Shown: positions 4,018-36,339 of the stretch, in pieces
Position numbering within the stretch: position 1 is the stretch's first letter
Layout: every line of letters begins with the position of its first letter
Source of the DNA: Syntrophomonadaceae bacterium
Lineage (GTDB): Bacteria; Bacillota; Syntrophomonadia; Syntrophomonadales; Syntrophomonadaceae
Length of the DNA stretch: 40,459 nucleotides
Direction of reading: 5' to 3'
NCBI GenBank assembly: GCA_028706315.1
Contig: JAQWBP010000004.1
Location: forward strand, 76,846 to 117,304
Position numbers and translations under genes: made by a program
Notes under the pieces: model-generated
The model's input: only the letters and a program-made list of their open reading frames with translations
What the model was told of the DNA's origin: nothing
Databases searched by the model: none

Positions 4018-4049
4018 AAAAAAGTGCACGAGGTATTACTACCCCGCGC
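4018..4049 (-). terminator. Intrinsic terminator of the glycine riboswitch expression platform
   Basis: Arms at 4026-4035 and 4040-4049 form a 10-bp hairpin with two G-U pairs and a 4-base loop, followed on the minus strand by six T residues (4018-4023). It lies directly after the P1 stem of the second aptamer and about 190 bases before ftcD. A riboswitch-controlled read-through decision is the simplest reading. Confidence 0.8.
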
Positions 4050-4217
4050 TCTGTATAGTTTACCTGAGAGTTTCACCTAAAGGTTTGCTCCTTCGGCGTC
4101 TTGCGACTTTCCAGAGTTGCGTCTAGACACGGTCCTTGGCACCTGAGAGTTTCATTATTATCCGGGAGGATAACAATTTTCTCCTTCGGTATGAGTTTTA
4201 TCTCATTCTCCCGTATC
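4049..4217 (-). promoter_or_regulatory. Tandem glycine riboswitch (two aptamers)
   Basis: Two copies of the glycine-aptamer core are visible on the minus strand. Aptamer 1 (4217-4127) has ACCGAAGGAG, then TGAAACTCTCAGGTGCCAAGGAC, with a P1 helix pairing ATACGG with CCGTGT. Aptamer 2 (about 4117-4049) has GCCGAAGGAGCAAACC and GGTGAAACTCTCAGGTAAA, with P1 pairing CTCTG with CAGAG. This is the classical cooperative tandem arrangement. The downstream terminator suggests that glycine binding permits transcription of ftcD, fchA and the grd genes. Confidence 0.93.
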
Positions 4218-4526
4218 CTTCATTCGCTACACTTTCACTTTTTCACGAAGCTTGAATAATCAATCAAAAAATTATTATATTGTATTGTAATTTGTCGTTT
4301 CTGTTGCCTTTATTGCCGTAGTAACCTCGTATTAGTTTAAGTGTAATCGGCGTTTTTAGTATTTATCTAATACAGTTTTATGTAATATTTATAATTTGTC
4401 TTTTTTAAATTTAGCTATATTGTCGTTTACTTGTGAATCATGTCGCTTTCTACATGGATAATATACCGCTTTGGTCTCTAGATGTCAACAGTTGATATGT
4501 TATCATTTCTATTATATTAATACAAT
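4218..4526. other. Intergenic leader between spmB and the glycine riboswitch
   Basis: AT-rich, with no convincing open frame on either strand. The recognisable element is the promoter at 4460-4488. That leaves about 220 bases of untranslated leader before the first aptamer, in which I see no further structure. I find no clear terminator for spmB here. Confidence 0.6.
4460..4488 (-). promoter_or_regulatory. Sigma-A-type promoter for the riboswitch/ftcD operon
   Basis: On the minus strand a perfect TTGACA (4488-4483) and TATATT (4465-4460) are separated by exactly 17 bases. It points at the glycine riboswitch and is the best vegetative promoter match I found in the window. Confidence 0.7.
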
Positions 4527-29106: not shown

Positions 29107-30342
29107 TTAATCCCTCCCATTACCATTCAAGAAAAAACCTTCAACACTACGTTCCGGTATTGACTTGAACTCAATATCAGCCTCGGCAGAAGGAATTGGG
29201 GCTACAGGCCTGATTAATTCAAATGTACCGTCTTGAATCCACTGTTTTAGTGTAGCAGCAATTATTCTTGCCCGTGGATAACTAGACTGTGATGTCGTTT
29301 TTATTTCTTTACCATTGATAATAATTTTACCACTCTTTAGCGCTTTAAAATTGGCCAGACCGAGATCTATAGGTTTGGAGTAGGGATATCCTTCATTATA
29401 ATCAACTATGGGACAGTAGATATCTTCATCTTTTACTGCAGTATAGCGTAGTATTTCTTCATCGAGAATGGGGATTGGTATCCCTATTCCTACTGCCATG
29501 GTAGCTCCGTAGCCTATGTAGCTTAGCCCTACCAGCCAATTAGGATCCATTTGTTTGAGATCACCGATTACTGACAAGGTTCCGGCAGTAGCCATTGGTA
29601 CTCCGTTTTCACCCCTTAAAACGTTAGGATGGTGCTGAGTCCCGTTCCATGCCACATACCCAATGCCCCCGCCCAGGAATATTCTGGTGCCAATTCCAAG
29701 CGTCTTATAATAAGGATCATTTAGTAAAGGACTTAATTGTCCCGCTGTTGCATAACTGGCATTACCCAGGTGTGGCTTGAGTATACCCATATAAGTATAA
29801 AGAGTTCTATCACCAAGGTTAACCGCACAATTATAATTCTGATAAGCGTTACGAGGGTTAAAAATAAAAGCTTCATTAACATCATTAAGGGTAATAATAG
29901 TATCAACCTTTTTATTAGGATAACAATCGGTGCCATAAGCTGTGGCCTCTAACCTGATTTCTTTACCAGCTACTAGATCATGAATAACATGACCTCCTCC
30001 ATAGCTAAAGCGGCCAGGATAAACCTTATTCTCTGGATCAGTATCTGGCAACTGGGCAGCTCCGAGATAGGCATCAACCGCAGCTATGCCGGCATAAGCC
30101 TCCACCCCATTTAACCAGACTTTTTTCATTTTAATCCTTGGATTTGAATGGCCAAAATTAATAAAGGCTCCTGAGGAACACATGGGGCCAAAAGTTCCCG
30201 TAGTCACAACATCAATTTCTTTGGCTGCCCTTTCATAGCCTTTTTCCTCAACAATCCCAATAACTTCTTCAGCTGTAACTACCACAGCTTCACCCTGCCT
30301 GATTTTTTCATTAATTTCCTCGTAGGTCTTTTTGCAAGTCAT
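29107..30342 (-). CDS. Homocysteine biosynthesis protein (COG1900, DUF39)
   Basis: A 411-residue DUF39 (HcyBio) protein. The family's conserved cysteines are visible in TTGTFGPMCSSGAFINFGHS (Cys55) and YGTDCYPNKK (Cys140). Archaeal members may carry C-terminal CBS domains; this one does not. Genetic work in Methanosarcina shows that the family, with the NIL-ferredoxin, makes homocysteine from aspartate semialdehyde, bypassing O-acetylhomoserine. The ATG overlaps the metH stop (TAATG), so the product is made beside its consumer. Confidence 0.92.
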   Translation of the reverse strand: MTCKKTYEEINEKIRQGEAVVVTAEEVIGIVEEKGYERAAKEIDVVTTGTFGPMCSSGAFINFGHSNPRIKMKKVWLNGVEAYAGIAAVDAYLGAAQLPDTDPENKVYPGRFSYGGGHVIHDLVAGKEIRLEATAYGTDCYPNKKVDTIITLNDVNEAFIFNPRNAYQNYNCAVNLGDRTLYTYMGILKPHLGNASYATAGQLSPLLNDPYYKTLGIGTRIFLGGGIGYVAWNGTQHHPNVLRGENGVPMATAGTLSVIGDLKQMDPNWLVGLSYIGYGATMAVGIGIPIPILDEEILRYTAVKDEDIYCPIVDYNEGYPYSKPIDLGLANFKALKSGKIIINGKEIKTTSQSSYPRARIIAATLKQWIQDGTFELIRPVAPIPSAEADIEFKSIPERSVEGFFLNGNGRD

Positions 30343-32867
30343 TAATCTCCCCCCTGGTTTAATAATTTTTGCGCAGCAAGAACTGCCTGCCGGGCATCTT
30401 CAGCATAGGTATCTGCACCAATACTATCAGCATATTCCTGAGTCAGGACTGCTCCGCCTACCATCACCTTACAATTTAGTCCCCGAGCTTTTACCCCGGT
30501 AATTACTTCCTTCATACGCGGCATAGTTGTTGTCATAAGAGCACTTAATCCAATTAAGTCTGCCCCTTCTTGCTCAGCTGTATCAAGTATTAGCTCCGAT
30601 TTTACGTCCTTACCAAGATCAATAATTTTAAATCCGTAATTTTCGAGCATTACACTGACAATATTTTTGCCAATATCATGTATATCACCTTCTACAGTAG
30701 CCATAATAATAACTCCCCTTGAGTCCCCGGTTTCTTCCGACATATGTTGTTTTACCTGGTTAAAGGCCACCTTCATTGTTTCCGCTGCCATCATTAACTG
30801 AGGCAGAAAATATTTTTTTTCATCATACAACTGACCCGCTTTTTCAATTCCCGGAATTAAAGCCTGATTTACTATTTCCACCGGAATCATTCCATCGTTA
30901 AGTGCTCCCGCAATTAAGCTCTCTATTACATCCCGGTTTCCCTCCAGTACTGCCTGGCTTATCTGCTCTTTGATGGATCCGGTGGCATCAGATGTAAGTT
31001 TAATCTCTCCTTTGCTCTGGGGAGCTACAGTTGTTTCAGCCTTTTGACCACCTTTATTTAAAATCAAATCAGGTATGTTACAAGTTTGACAAATAGCATG
31101 CCGAACTTTTCCACCAGTGCTCTCTCCTGGCTTCATATCCCGGTATTTTTCAATAAAATCCTGGCTGTTTATATCTCTGTTCAGCAGAACAGCAGCAGCA
31201 CGGGTAGCATCCATCATCCGTTCATCAAAGGGATTGATTATGGGTAAATCTAGTCCAGCGAACCAGGCCATGGCCAGATACGAAGAGTTTAATATACTGC
31301 GTGCCGGTAACCCGTGGGATACATTACTAACTCCCAGGACTGTCCCTACACCTAGCTCTTCTTTTACTGTTTGTACCCCTTTTAGGGTTTCCATAACTTG
31401 TGACTGCTCGGCGCTGGCAGTCTTTACCAGGCAGTCTATATATATATCTTCATCCCGCAGGCCATATTCTTTCGCACGTCTATATATTTTCCTGGCCACT
31501 TCCATGCGATCTTCGGCCCGCTCAGGTATACCTTTTTCATCAAGGCACAAGCCTAGTACAGCCGCACCGTATTTTTTGGCTAGGGGAAGAATGATGTCCA
31601 GGTTTTTATCTTCACCAGTAGTAGAATTTATGAGAGGCCTGCCAACAAAGTTTTTTAGACCTGACTCAATAGCTGCGGCATTAGATGAATCAATCGAGAT
31701 TGGTATATCTACTGCTGCCTGAATATTAGTTACTGCCTGTTCCATGGCTCCTGGCTCATCTATCCCTGGAACCCCCATATTTACATCCAGCATCGGAGCT
31801 CCACCTGCTATCTGTTTTCTAGCTTCATCTACAACTATGTGCATTTGACCATCTTTTATATCCTGGGCTAATTTTTTTCGAGCGGTAGGATTTATCCGTT
31901 CCCCTATAAAAGCCAGCGGATGTTCATTACCTATTAGAATATGTTTAGTACGCGATGCAAAAGCCAGCAGTTTCTTCCGGGTTCTGGTTACTGGCGGAAG
32001 ATCTCTCACGACACCTGCTATAGCCCGAATATGTTCAGGAGTAGTACCACAACATCCGCCTATAATGTTGGCACCAGCATCTCGTAATATTAGAGCATAC
32101 TCTGCCATTTCGTCTGGAGAATCAGGAAAAATAGTTTCTGTGCCCACCAATTGTGGTAACCCAGCATTCGGCTCCACTGAAAGAAATACACTGGCGTATC
32201 TGTTCATGGTCTCAATAACCGGGAGTAATTCTCTGGCACCTCCTGAACAGTTAGCACCAATAGCAAGTGGCTGCAGAGCCTCCAGTATAATAAGAGCTGT
32301 AACTGGATCAGTCCCCATCATGGTTCTTCCATCTTCTTCAAAACTCATATGAGCAATAACCGGGAGCCGGGTATTATGGCGGGCAGCTATAAGGGCAATG
32401 CGCATCTCACCAATATCTGTCATGGTCTCAATTGACAATAAATCAGCACCTGCCCTTTCACAAGCAATAACTTGCTCGCTAAATGCCTGGTATAGTGTAT
32501 CAAAATCAGTATCGCCAATAGGTTGTAGCATTTTACCCGTGGGGCCAATGGAGGCTGCCACCAGTGTTTTGCCCCTGGCACTTCGCCTGGCTATATTTAC
32601 AGCCTCGGCATTAATTTCCTCCACTTTATCTTCCAGGCTATATTCGGCTAGCTTAATCCGGTTAGCTCCAAAAGTATTAGTCTGGATAATATCGGCACCA
32701 GCTTCAGCATAATCCTCATGAATTTTACCTAGAATTCTCGGATTATTTATACCAAATAATTCCGGGCATTCCCCGGGTTGAATCCCGTTTTTCTGCAACA
32801 TAGTACCCATGGCCCCATCTAGCACCAGAATTCTACTTTTTAATAAAGATTCAATATCTGCAGACAT
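30342..32867 (-). CDS. metH: Cobalamin-dependent methionine synthase without reactivation domain
   Basis: An 841-residue protein. Residues 1-290 are the homocysteine S-methyltransferase barrel with the zinc cysteines (GANCSGG and GGCCGTTPEH). About 320-590 is the pterin-binding domain (FIGERINPTARKKL, SIDSSNAAAIE). About 640-720 is the B12 cap, and the cobalamin domain carries GDIHDIG with the lower-ligand His near 730. The C-terminal SAM-binding reactivation domain of E. coli MetH is absent, as in several anaerobes. The methyl donor is presumably methyl-THF. A SAM-I riboswitch precedes the gene, so its operon is repressed when SAM is plentiful. Confidence 0.95.
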   Translation of the reverse strand: MSADIESLLKSRILVLDGAMGTMLQKNGIQPGECPELFGINNPRILGKIHEDYAEAGADIIQTNTFGANRIKLAEYSLEDKVEEINAEAVNIARRSARGKTLVAASIGPTGKMLQPIGDTDFDTLYQAFSEQVIACERAGADLLSIETMTDIGEMRIALIAARHNTRLPVIAHMSFEEDGRTMMGTDPVTALIILEALQPLAIGANCSGGARELLPVIETMNRYASVFLSVEPNAGLPQLVGTETIFPDSPDEMAEYALILRDAGANIIGGCCGTTPEHIRAIAGVVRDLPPVTRTRKKLLAFASRTKHILIGNEHPLAFIGERINPTARKKLAQDIKDGQMHIVVDEARKQIAGGAPMLDVNMGVPGIDEPGAMEQAVTNIQAAVDIPISIDSSNAAAIESGLKNFVGRPLINSTTGEDKNLDIILPLAKKYGAAVLGLCLDEKGIPERAEDRMEVARKIYRRAKEYGLRDEDIYIDCLVKTASAEQSQVMETLKGVQTVKEELGVGTVLGVSNVSHGLPARSILNSSYLAMAWFAGLDLPIINPFDERMMDATRAAAVLLNRDINSQDFIEKYRDMKPGESTGGKVRHAICQTCNIPDLILNKGGQKAETTVAPQSKGEIKLTSDATGSIKEQISQAVLEGNRDVIESLIAGALNDGMIPVEIVNQALIPGIEKAGQLYDEKKYFLPQLMMAAETMKVAFNQVKQHMSEETGDSRGVIIMATVEGDIHDIGKNIVSVMLENYGFKIIDLGKDVKSELILDTAEQEGADLIGLSALMTTTMPRMKEVITGVKARGLNCKVMVGGAVLTQEYADSIGADTYAEDARQAVLAAQKLLNQGGD

Positions 32868-32974
32868 TATAAATACTCCCCCTTTGTTACTATATATTTT
32901 ATAATTGCTTCCCGGGGGAAATACCTTTTAGGTTATTAATCCCAGGTCGCAGACTTTTTACTATAAATTGGTAT

Positions 32975-33005
32975 GAAAAAACCCTCTTAATATATTAAGA
33001 GGGTT
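32975..33005 (-). terminator. Terminator of the SAM riboswitch
   Basis: AACCCTCTTAATATATTAAGAGGGTT is a near-perfect palindrome followed by T residues on the minus strand. It lies just after the SAM-I aptamer and 108 bases before metH. Confidence 0.92.
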
Positions 33006-33019
33006 AAACGGTTTTCTCC

Positions 33020-33124
33020 CTCTTATCTTTCAGGATTAGTCCTGCAGGATTTGGCACCATACCTTAATAGGTAGGCGGTTGCCGGGCTTCATCGGGCCAG
33101 TCCCTCCACCTCTCTCGATAAGAG
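33020..33124 (-). promoter_or_regulatory. SAM-I (S-box) riboswitch
   Basis: On the minus strand P1 pairs CTCTTATC with GATAAGAG. Inside are the signature AGAGGTGGAGGGA, then CTGGCCCGATGAAGCCCGGCAACC, then GGTGCCAAATCC, and a CCTGCAGGACTAATCCTGAAAGA end. All the SAM-contacting segments are present. The aptamer begins only 23 bases after the tatA stop, so either a promoter lies within tatA or transcription reads through from tatA. Confidence 0.96.
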
Positions 33125-33147
33125 AATTTATTAATTTATCAAAATTA

Positions 33148-33441
33148 TTACAGGTCTTCTTTCCCTGTATCATCGTCTGTCTTTTTAGCAGCTGTATCAG
33201 ATTGTACGCTGTCAGACTTATCTGCTGTCTTCTGGATATTTGCACGTACAGGTTCTTCATCAAAGCTAATAGTTTCTTTAAATTCTTCTTTTATACCTGA
33301 TGTAGCCTTTTTAAAATCCCTAGTAGCTTTACCAAGGGATTTTGCCACTTCAGGTAATTTACCTGGACCAACCACAATTAAGGCTATAGCTAAAATAAAT
33401 ATCAGTTCCCAGGGTCCGATATTGCCAATAAATCCAACCAT
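33148..33441 (-). CDS. tatA: Twin-arginine translocase subunit TatA
   Basis: A 97-residue protein with the TatA pattern: short N-terminus, membrane helix (GPWELIFILAIALIVVGPGKLPE), an amphipathic helix (AKSLGKATRDFKKAT) and a charged tail rich in Asp and Lys. The ATG at 33441 has AGG eight bases before it; the frame is open to a TTG at 33462 that lacks a ribosome site. No tatC is present in the window. The end of the IS607-type element lies about 20-30 bases upstream and may have cut it from its original promoter. Confidence 0.9.
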   Translation of the reverse strand: MVGFIGNIGPWELIFILAIALIVVGPGKLPEVAKSLGKATRDFKKATSGIKEEFKETISFDEEPVRANIQKTADKSDSVQSDTAAKKTDDDTGKEDL

Positions 33442-33484
33442 AGTTGTTACCTGGTTTCCCAAACTATATATTTCTATATAACCT

Positions 33485-33670
33485 GGCGTTCTATCGACTA
33501 TAGAACGGGTAGCTCACAGGATTCGCTACCTTGGAGTGTTTGGCTACAAACCCTATTGCCAGTAAAAAACTTAAGTCTCTTACCGTACTGCAGGGCTACG
33601 GGAGTTACCCGTCTCCTTTAGTACCCTGCCAGTGCCTTTCCTTCCAGGTGGCTCCATCTGGCAGTTGTCC
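33485..33670 (-). ncRNA. Possible TnpB guide RNA (omega/HEARO-type) at the element end
   Basis: After the tnpB stop the minus strand has successive hairpins. CTGCCAG pairs with CTGGCAG (33658-33664 with 33626-33632), ACGGG with CCCGT (33598-33612), GGTAGC with GCTACC (33508-33530) and GTTCTAT with ATAGAAC (33488-33506). A GC-rich structured stretch at the 3' side of tnpB is where IS200/IS605 and IS607 elements encode their guide RNA. I have not matched it to a covariance model. Confidence 0.4.
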
Positions 33671-35085
33671 TACGCTACCAGAAACGCAGGTTTTTCACCT
33701 GCCTTTCTTAATTTGTTGATAGTTTTATTGGCCACATGCCATTGTGACCAATGGTGTTTGTTTTTTTCTCTAATTTCTTGGGGAAGAATACCTCTTATTG
33801 CTTGCGGCAGTTTTTCCGGGTAACTATATCCTCTACGGCCTATTACCAAAGCTGCTGACTGGTGAGCGGATAAACCATATTGTTTTTGGTATTTACACCT
33901 GCCAATGATGGTGGTATAAGCCGGGTTGACTTTGATTACTTCTATGCCTTGTCTTATGGCTTCTCGTTCTATTCCTTGTAATAAACGGGTGTAAGTAAAT
34001 TGGTGTGTTTTTCGGGATACTTTGGGTTTTAGATCACGATTGTCTTTGAATTTCAGGTTTTCTATTGCGATAGCAACGTTTTCATTTTGTGCTATTTTTA
34101 TAGCAGCTTTCACTGTTTCTCCAATTAGGTTTCTTCGTCGTTTGGTACGACTGTTGATTAGTTCACCGTTTCCCAGCCACCAGGATTTTTTGAAGTTACC
34201 ATCGCTGGTTATTAGGGTTAAAGCTAAACCATCTGGGTTTGTATCTATTCCGATTATTCCCTGGTTGGATGTTATAGCTTTAAATGGTTCGGTTTCTTCC
34301 AACGTTATCCGGCAATAATAATGCCCGTTTTTTCGGATTAGTTCTATTTGGTAAGGTTGACCTGTTGTTAGGTAATCCAATACCATCTGACGATAGTTAC
34401 GTCCATTAACAGCTCCAGTTTTTTTAGAAGGCTTCCAAGGTAGGTAGACTTTAGTTTTGAGTTGGATGTATCTTTTTACTTTTCCTCTGGTTTCGTACTG
34501 CTCGGTATTAATGATTAAATATACTTTTTCGCCTTCTGTGACTAATCGGGTGTTGGGATTACCTTTCTTGGTTATGTCGCCTCTGGAAAGTAAGCGATTA
34601 TCTCGGTTGGCCCGATATTCGTCCTGACTTATTTGGCCTTTGCATCTTTTCATGAATTGTTTGCGACCACCAAAGATAATTTTGGGCAAGGTGTTTTGGT
34701 TTTTAAATTTTTGCCAGTAGGCTAATTTTCTTTTCCGTTTAGTAAGTTTGGCTTGTAGACCTATATCTTTTTCGGATTGGTTATTTTTAGCTATCTGTTG
34801 TTCTACCCGCTTGACTTTGGTCTGCCAGTTTTCTATTTGCAGGTTAAGTAATTTTTCTTGAGATTGTTTAAGTTGACGGGCTTGCTCAATGGCATCGCTG
34901 GCATACCGGGAATTAAGACCATATTGGTTTTGAATTAGTTTCTGTATGTCTTTTTTCTTGTTGCCCTGCAGTAGGCGGTGGTAAGCAAATCGGGTAGCTG
35001 ACGAAAATAGGGTTTGGAGATGGTTAATTATGTTTTCTTGTTCAGGAGTTAGATTGATTAGGACCGCATTTATGGTTGTTTTTAT
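33670..35085 (-). pseudogene. tnpB: TnpB-related protein, start codon lost (ATG to ATA)
   Basis: Read from an ATA at 35085 the frame gives 471 residues: N-terminus KTTINAVLINLTPEQENII, a helical arginine- and lysine-rich middle, then a RuvC-like domain with GIIGIDTNPDG (Asp at full-length 281) and AIAIENLKF (Glu 342). A GGGG site lies eight bases before the ATA, as expected for a former ATG. The next possible start is a TTG at 34689, which leaves only 339 residues. Where TnpB normally has a zinc finger and the RuvC-III Asp, this protein has IGRCKYQKQYGLSAHQSAALVIGRRG, with His at the aligned position. It overlaps tnpA by 44 bases. Confidence 0.8.
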
Positions 35086-35562
35086 TTAAACCACCCCTTT
35101 CCCTCTCTAATTCTGTTAAACATTGTTTTACTTTGCGACCGCCCCTGGCTCCGTATAGTCGTGCGGACAAAGAGGTTATAATGGCGATTAAATCTTCTAC
35201 CATTTCTTGATCCGGTTCTTTTTGTTTGTTTTCCTCAACAGCTTCAATCTGGACTCCCATCTGCTGGCAGTACATTTTTAAATAGTTATAACCAAATCGG
35301 GCTAAGCGGTCTGGATATTCAATGATTATTTTTTATACCTCAGACAATTGTTTCATCATATGGGTAAGTTCTTACGGTTCGCATTGATACCACTAGCGGT
35401 TTCTGAAAAGACTTCCACTACTTGATAACCTTTGTCAAAACAATAGCTTAACCCGGTGTTCTAACTGGATGAATTTGTCCTTTTTGTTCCCATGTGCCAG
35501 TAAGGCCATACGAGTCACATTTAACTCTTTTCCATAACTTCTTTCATAGTATATAGTTTCAT
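35042..35562 (-). pseudogene. tnpA: IS607 serine recombinase TnpA, frameshifted and deleted
   Basis: Pieces in different frames reconstruct an IS607 TnpA: MKLYTMKEV, then GKELNVTRMALL (MerR-like HTH), then EQKGQIHPVRTPG and a stop, then KGYQVVEVFSETASGINANRKNLP, then a TAA after QLSEV, then EYPDRLARFGYNYLKMYCQQ through VEDLIAIITSLSARLYGARGG. At least two frameshifts and several stops interrupt it. The stretch that should hold the catalytic serine (the YARVS region) is missing. The last 77 codons remain open (35042-35275). It cannot encode an active recombinase. Confidence 0.8.
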
Positions 35563-35586
35563 AACCTCCATCTTAAACTATATATT

Positions 35587-36009
35587 ATAATCATTTTGTA
35601 TTATATATGGTAGCTTCTTCTACCTCCTATAGTCCTGACCGAAACAGTTTTTAATTATTCGTTGGTTATGGTTAATTGTACTTTTCTTTGTTTAGATTAG
35701 CAATCATTTTCACTAATAAGTAATTAAGGTAGTTTATTGAAGATTCTATATACAAGTTATAAATTCCTGCACAAATATAAGTGTCAACTAAAATACTTCG
35801 CTTAAACCCCAATAAAAATTCCGTACAAAATTACTTATTATATAAACATATTAAAATGGCAAAAGCTTTTATAAAAAAAGAGAAAAAAGGACATTCTCTG
35901 TCATTTTATTATGACAGAATGCCCTTTCCGAAAACAAATATAAGATTTTACCATAACGTTAATTTATCCAAAATTACATTTCATTTTCCCGTCTTTAGTT
36001 GTTTATTAA
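35587..36009. other. AT-rich intergenic region upstream of the IS element
   Basis: No gene is supported on either strand. It contains the terminator of the PF04020-type gene at 35883-35927. The rest is AT-rich and presumably includes the original leader or promoter region of tatA, now separated from it by the insertion. Confidence 0.5.
35883..35927 (-). terminator. Intrinsic terminator after the PF04020-type gene
   Basis: AAAGGGCATTCTGTCAT pairs with ATGACAGAGAATGTCCTTT (one bulge) around a short AT loop, followed by T residues on the minus strand. Confidence 0.8.
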
Positions 36010-36339
36010 TTATCTAAGCTCTGTAGGAACAAAAGCATCAACTAGTCCGATAACGAAAGCTGCCAGCAAACTGCCCAGTAAAGATACCGATAAATAACTC
36101 GGGATTATGAACTGGGCGACATAAATCACAACTGCAGCAGTTACAAATCCAACTATTCCTCTAGAACGTGGTGATACCTTGTCACCGAGAATAGTTTCCA
36201 CTATATAACCCAGAATTGCTATAACAATAGCAGCAATCAATGCACCGGTAAAACCAGAAACACTGATTCCAGGTAATAGGAACCCAACAAGCATTAAAAC
36301 CAGGGCCGATACAACAAAACGGATAATGGTCCCTATCAT
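36010..36339 (-). CDS. Four-helix small membrane protein of the PF04020 (YvlD/'phage holin IV') family
   Basis: A 109-residue protein with four hydrophobic helices, a GFLLPGISVSGFTGALIAAIVIAILG segment and a conserved VSPRSRGIVGFVTAAVVIYVAQFIIPSY. This matches the PF04020 family, often labelled phage holin superfamily IV. Nothing phage-like surrounds it. Bacillus relatives (YvlD) are chromosomal envelope proteins, so lysis is unlikely. It is a single gene with its own terminator, transcribed away from the gerA operon. Confidence 0.8.
   Translation of the reverse strand: MIGTIIRFVVSALVLMLVGFLLPGISVSGFTGALIAAIVIAILGYIVETILGDKVSPRSRGIVGFVTAAVVIYVAQFIIPSYLSVSLLGSLLAAFVIGLVDAFVPTELR

Follow-up and report, generated by a model that had tools for sequence, protein, structure and literature searches.

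A TnpB lineage that lacks the zinc finger and has His at the third RuvC position, viewed from a probable decayed IS607-type element next to tatA

TnpB proteins of IS607-type elements are already known, and ISFba1, whose TnpB has the RuvC triad D194/E290/D371 and goes with a RAGATH-18 RNA, offers a described point of comparison for the locus studied here: a TnpB-like gene in a 40,459-nucleotide stretch of DNA (the window, whose own numbering is used throughout) from a Syntrophomonadaceae bacterium (GCA_028706315.1, contig JAQWBP010000004.1, positions 76,846 to 117,304). The two have in common a TnpA partner of IS607 type (for some members of the family described below), a structured right end, an AG-rich left motif and the TnpB fold. 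At our locus, by contrast, a His stands in for the third Asp and the C4 zinc finger is missing. Our joint reading, to which we assign a probability of roughly 0.48, is that the gene codes for the TnpB of a decayed IS607-type element, a predicted Asp-Glu-His RNA-guided nuclease, and that elements of this lineage dock on Shine-Dalgarno sites. In the literature consulted we found neither an Asp-Glu-His TnpB lineage nor Shine-Dalgarno docking, although one TnpB classification paper and the original TldR paper may contain such a description.

Several other systems invite comparison. Cas12f is the closest structural match, but it is a CRISPR effector, and the window offers just chance two-copy repeats in 32900-36100 and a protein that lacks a zinc finger. 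Cas12m, like the window protein, has a non-canonical triad that includes a His, but there the His comes first (H317-D485-D579), a zinc finger is present and the enzyme is CRISPR-guided; in Cas12m2, as described in PMC10442227, H317 takes the place of the first Asp and D485 that of the second Glu, with loss of metal B, and the protein binds DNA but does not cut it. Asp281, the absence of a finger and the finding of no more than those chance repeats across 32900-36100 speak against Cas12m identity. TldRs are likewise TnpB homologues with a changed RuvC site, which PMC13418256 describes as having lost activity and as often linked with partner genes; here, two kept acids and varied downstream flanks and insertion sites speak against TldR identity. 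Finally, the RuvC resolvases of Deinococcus and Thermus are active enzymes with a natural His at, by counting, the same helix position, yet they are Holliday-junction resolvases with a fourth catalytic acid and are not RNA-guided.

A preliminary description of the window, made from its letters alone, had picked out the motifs GIDTNPDG and AIENL and the C-terminal segment YGLSAHQSAALVIGRRG, all of which are present on the minus strand. Its extent for the gene, 33670-34690, captured a listed open reading frame (ORF) at 33670-34689 that is counted from the first TTG there; this is a portion of a longer frame, open from 35085 and 471 codons long, and the N-terminal part had been omitted. The ATA that opens the longer frame lies directly 3' of a stop and aligns with a Met in several relatives (L017 and L029-L032 among them), and the ORF list contains no in-frame ATG, GTG or TTG upstream of 34689. 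In the protein, Asp281 and Glu342 are the RuvC-I and RuvC-II acids and His408 occupies the RuvC-III Asp position, just as described. The zinc finger is indeed missing: the stretch from NPAYTT to the final helix has a single Cys (in IGRCKYQKQYG) and lacks any CxxC pair, the Pfam model TNB (PF07282) scores 18.3 bits, under its 26.3 cut-off, and the region is equally short in the aligned relatives, His rows and Asp rows alike. When a profile of 40 family rows was compared with Cas12f chains, the alignment ended at ..VNPAYTS in the five alignments printed, and it is after this point that the zinc ribbon comes in canonical TnpB. Among NCBIfam models, TIGR01766 matches the window protein above its cut-off (49.3 bits against 32), while guided_TnpB (NF040570) stays under its own (74.1 bits against 100); the seven members scanned behave similarly, with TIGR01766 matching all seven (six above cut-off) and NF040570 below cut-off in every one. 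The associated name (TIGR01765/TIGR01766, IS200/IS605 family accessory protein TnpB-related protein) is carried by many plasmid relatives and implies no mechanism.

We collected relatives with an alignment query of genome contigs (195 confirmed, of which the best 80 were used) together with some plasmid and phage records; a plain single-protein query of the genome contigs found none. Some came through the pattern A[AS][LF]VI[AG]RR, which biases the collection towards that motif and not towards His. Alignment of 112 distinct ORFs of at least 300 amino acids (profile E <= 1e-10), less 5 in which at least one triad position was blank, left 107 readable rows, the window included. Of these, 89 have the triad Asp-Glu-His (DEH), 16 Asp-Glu-Asp (DED), one His-Glu-His and one Asp-Glu-Ala, which bears out the earlier suggestion of a family trait. 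The first two acids are near-invariant, with Asp281 kept in 106 of 107 rows and Glu342 in all of them, and the ratio of nonsynonymous to synonymous substitution rates (dN/dS) lies between 0.08 and 0.36 for every one of the 17 pairs of related copies, a mark of purifying selection; together these results indicate a lineage selected as protein, with its first two acids retained. In a same-phylum sample, 44 of 398 genomes gave a match at E <= 1e-20, counting the window's own genome and partial matches. A quick tree of 102 rows gathers the 16 Asp rows into one group (SH-aLRT branch support 100) nested among His rows, the latter coming from Bacillota, three archaeal groups, Schekmaniibacteriota and Armatimonadota, several as metagenome bins. 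This is a large and widespread lineage without a zinc finger, in which the Asp-Glu-His site is the family rule.

Single rows of this survey deserve mention in their own right. The sole His-Glu-His protein, from a Hodarchaeota metagenome-assembled genome (L114 2187-3743), has a His at the first RuvC Asp as well. The TnpB of a record labelled as a Klebsiella pneumoniae plasmid (L018, NZ_CP061967.1) sits on very short branches with a Desulfofundulus copy and with G306; contamination or mislabelling of this record is possible. On Ammonifex degensii pADEG01 (L019 1505-4380) a DEH-type tnpB begins 14 bases beyond the end of an iscB gene, such that two OMEGA-type genes adjoin.

To place His408 we used an AlphaFold2 model built on 40 sequences (mean predicted local distance difference test score, pLDDT, 87.3; predicted template-modelling score, pTM, 0.75), in which His408 opens the helix 407-419 and strands carry Asp281 and Glu342. 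Structural comparison with VIA-align gave Cas12f as best match (9i8y, Z 19.2, 3.6 A over 321 residues) and also matched ISDra2 TnpB (Z 15.9, 287 residues at 4.2 A) and ISFba1 TnpB (8iaz, Z 12.8, 297 residues at 4.1 A), consistent with a TnpB/Cas12f fold with a split RuvC, and the RuvC part of the model matched RuvC resolvases at Z 13-14. Counting back from the ends of the VIA-align ranges, on the assumption of a gap-free last helix, places His408 opposite residue 361 of ISDra2 TnpB (8exa, 8h1j), the third catalytic Asp there, residue 139 of Deinococcus radiodurans RuvC (DrRuvC; 7xhj, 7w8d) and residue 138 of Escherichia coli RuvC (EcRuvC; 1hjr). H139 of DrRuvC is itself a natural replacement of the third Asp in an active enzyme that prefers Mn2+, and the EcRuvC mutant D138H loses its Mg2+ activity and keeps a weak Mn2+ activity (both in excerpts of PMC9601230). 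Since a third-position His occurs naturally in active RuvC, His408 alone does not mean a dead enzyme, and by analogy a Mn2+-leaning Asp-Glu-His nuclease is a fair reading of the predicted function.

The preliminary description had offered an alternative between nuclease-dead DNA binders and a different active site. The second half fits at least as well; the first is unsupported as stated, given two near-invariant acids, purifying selection, an Asp clade inside the family and a His that falls, by counting, at a place where some RuvC resolvases naturally have one. The description had also looked to structure prediction to tell whether the His or another acid completes the site. The model places the His at the start of the helix 407-419. 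E424, the rival candidate, is 98% conserved but lies past the end of that helix, and since the 98% applies to the full 107-row set, DED rows included, it shows no trade-off with the Asp/His difference. That another acid completes the triad is very improbable in our estimation.

A number of observations weigh against the nuclease reading or its supports. Counting gives ISFba1 residue 370, where D371 is published, and a spread from 382 to 402 for AsCas12f rows, so the counting-based mapping is not exact everywhere. When profiles were compared with 11 RuvC sequences, motifs I and II could be aligned but motif III could not (probability 0.4%), which lends the His mapping no support. Position 411, three residues past His408, is Ala in 97% of rows, where RuvC carries a further acid. 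The tree is midpoint-rooted and has no outgroup, and so gives no direction for the Asp/His change. In the window copy itself TnpA is broken and the tnpB-like frame opens with ATA. Lastly, Cas12m sites of the H-D-D, N-D-D and even D-E-D type bind double-stranded DNA and do not cut it, as stated in parts of PMC11013384. This last point favours a different account, in which the protein would be an RNA-guided binder that does not cleave: Asp281, Glu342 and His408 would hold one metal gripping the non-target strand, and transcription would be blocked at the start codon of the element-free allele. The H-D-D site of Cas12m2 does bind one Mg2+ and the non-target strand without cutting (PMC10442227, in part), TldRs represent repeated inactivation of TnpB (PMC13418256, in part), and a guide spanning a start codon, as proposed below, would suit repression. 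On the other hand, Asp281 and Glu342 are both retained in the lineage, and several multi-copy genomes, together with a DED genus that has the same ends, fit a nuclease that helps its element persist. We regard such a binder as possible, if somewhat doubtful.

The elements of the family show a strong excess of insertions just 5' of start codons. At 51 of 68 distinct flanks, a start codon opening at least 60 codons lies 4-12 nt past the right end, with 7 nt the commonest spacing, as compared with 1459 of 13600 random positions (10.7%; P 2e-35, the flanks being perhaps not fully independent). These 68 sites (67 DEH and 1 DED) remained after 44 of the 112 rows gave no site, for want of a motif, through too little sequence or because the flank had already been counted. 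The 17 misses include three probably false right ends (L018, L033, L089), and in several of the misses an ATG is rightly spaced and the ORF short. At the left, within multi-copy groups, the border falls at GGAGG in 17 of the 19 rows printed (21 loci given); in a second set of 11 loci, some additional and some shared with the first, 8 have GGAGG with A(A/G)CAG directly after it, and none was found within 900 bases in L058, L059 and L062. One DED genus (4 rows) has the same ends, ..ACCAGG at the right and GGAGG at the left, while in the DED Anaerolineae rows the right end, ..GACCAGG, is the one that is clear, and the DED Thermus rows were not resolved.

In the window, the right flank reads TAACAACT and runs into the ATG of tatA, and the two flanks, once joined, read like a normal ribosome-binding site. 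Among the 15 tatA genes of relatives shown, 7 have aggagg in the 30 nt preceding the start. Because the window's left junction, TAGGAGG, is not followed by CAG, where 8 of the 11 loci have A(A/G)CAG after GGAGG, its left border is less certain. From these sequences we infer that the target-adjacent motif would be the host's Shine-Dalgarno sequence, with a guide that would span the host start codon. The motifs measured for IS607 TnpBs were AGGAG in 18 of 22 strains and GAGGG in 4 of 22, as given in PMC11061315, in the main text of which a word search turned up none of the terms Shine-Dalgarno, ribosome binding or start codon.

The right end looks like a guide RNA reading into the flank. The fold of 33449-33720 has a z score of -6.5, with none of 200 shuffles as stable, and the region closes with AACCAGG, the tatA start codon following at 8 nt. 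Around the loop AATCCTGT, every cell of 11 rows from the window's clade, a copy in genome G020 and three Halanaerobacter copies included, forms a five-pair stem; all 5 pairs of this stem are changed on both sides, a count reached in 72 of 500 shuffles, and the number of cells so changed is 19 versus 5.3 in shuffles, none of the 500 reaching 19. The loop CCTG complements the terminal CAGG in a possible pseudoknot, the four pairs of which are invariant in the 11 rows; as CCUG:CAGG never varies, covariation speaks neither for nor against it. In 29 more distant members a CCTGGT/ACCAGG pair is present throughout, with both-sided changes in 7 of 19 predicted pairs, and when multi-copy groups are compared similarity breaks off sharply past the conserved right end. 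Two further ideas about this region were rejected. It is not more conserved than the coding part (206/221 noncoding positions, 93%, versus 113/123 and 66/71 coding, 92-93%), and a scan of 16 sources gave no hit to RAGATH-18 or to another Rfam guide RNA at the gathering threshold.

In the mechanism we propose, the TnpB protein would bind the right-end RNA, the guide of which would start at the element border and read into the start of the host gene. Two features would let the complex recognise an allele that lacks the element: AGGAGG, the Shine-Dalgarno sequence serving as target-adjacent motif, and the start-codon sequence. Cleavage there, by Asp281 and Glu342 with His408 as metal ligand and probably with a preference for Mn2+, would favour copy-back of the element. 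Extended to the family, this becomes a tentative proposal that we hold with less assurance than the reading of the locus: widespread Asp-Glu-His, Mn2+-leaning nucleases would read Shine-Dalgarno sequences, their elements living in ribosome-binding sites and giving the host gene AACCAGG as a substitute, with guides that span its start codon.

The element itself (Table 1) bears clear signs of damage. Within 35042-35275 its tnpA has a match to the IS607 transposase, in the C-terminal part of the latter (NF033518, 47.3 bits on a 77-residue fragment, cut-off 110), and tblastn with the TnpA proteins of relatives recovers it in pieces over three frames, with an internal stop and with a loss of about 51-58 residues from one piece to another. 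Just upstream of the 89 DEH rows, TnpA is present as an ORF of at least 180 amino acids in 25, as a fragment in 9 and was not found in 44, the remaining 11 offering too little sequence. The copy in G020 (L006 1360-1860) has lost its 5' part and has a 469-base gap in tnpB relative to the window, with the right-end RNA region intact. Similarity between the two runs to ..GGGAAACCAGG(T) and then ends, which sets the right border at 33450. The window element thus ends in ..CCAGG at the right, by comparison, and probably at ..AGGAGG on the left; insertion of IS607 at GG is known (PMC6188088, in part).

Table 1. Positions of the element, its parts and its neighbour in the window
Feature	Position	Strand	Remarks and basis
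Whole IS607-type element	33450..35622 (about)	minus	right end placed against the G020 copy; left end putative
tnpA remnant (IS607 serine recombinase)	35042..35582	minus	NF033518 on 77-aa fragment, tblastn, frames
tnpB-like frame	33670..35085	minus	471 codons, stop-free, first codon ATA
D281 codon	34245-34243	minus
E342 codon	34062-34060	minus
H408 codon	33864-33862	minus
Right-end omegaRNA-like region	33450..33720	minus	stem-loop GGTAGC..GCTACC; loop AATCCTGT complements terminal CAGG
Guide segment (predicted)	33425..33449	minus	begins at element border, spans tatA start codon; from border and known TnpB biology
AGGAGG at putative left junction	35623..35628	minus	presumed original tatA Shine-Dalgarno and target-adjacent motif
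tatA	33148..33441	minus	ATG 33441-33439, 8 nt past element end

The broken tnpA, the ATA start and the single copy in the genome suggest a relic, and the window copy is probably defective, either inactive or weakly expressed. Ordinary decay, with nothing in this copy functional, would account for all three features, and the nearest copy, that of G020, is itself deleted. Such an account can hold at most for the window copy, in view of the purifying selection on copy pairs elsewhere in the family. Even here, the 471-codon tnpB-like frame has stayed open despite the lesions in tnpA, the chance of all 5 falling there being 0.0015 (on a count of 4-5 judged by eye from the tblastn pieces). We consider decay without function unlikely.

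Some observations stand apart from this argument. In the Thermus phages Lalka8 (L156 4669-5129), Lalka27b (L173 3669-4038) and Lalka27a (L021 4681-4770), a CRISPR-like array directly follows a finger-less TnpB, that of Lalka27a being of the DED type and the only one of the three that was aligned. The arrays have 8, 7 and 2 repeats of 29 nt, respectively, by motif count, with spacers mostly of 32-33 nt that differ between the phages, and the depositors annotate them as CRISPR; within the phage collection, matches to the Lalka8 array are confined to these three. They could represent an emerging phage-borne Cas12-like system. The window also contains, on its minus strand, an S-adenosylmethionine (SAM) riboswitch at 33020-33124, just 5' of a gene at 30342-32867 that we read as methionine-synthase-like, and a tandem glycine riboswitch at 4049-4223.

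The interest lies in the lineage more than in the window copy. If our reading is true, the TnpB/Cas12 centre tolerates a long-term exchange of Asp and His at its third acid, paralleling RuvC resolvases, and screens with Mg2+ alone may miss such enzymes. The DEH rows and the DED clade together form a natural test of cleavage versus binding. The AG-rich motif of IS607 TnpBs would likewise find an explanation as a ribosome-binding site, so that insertion can spare the host gene.
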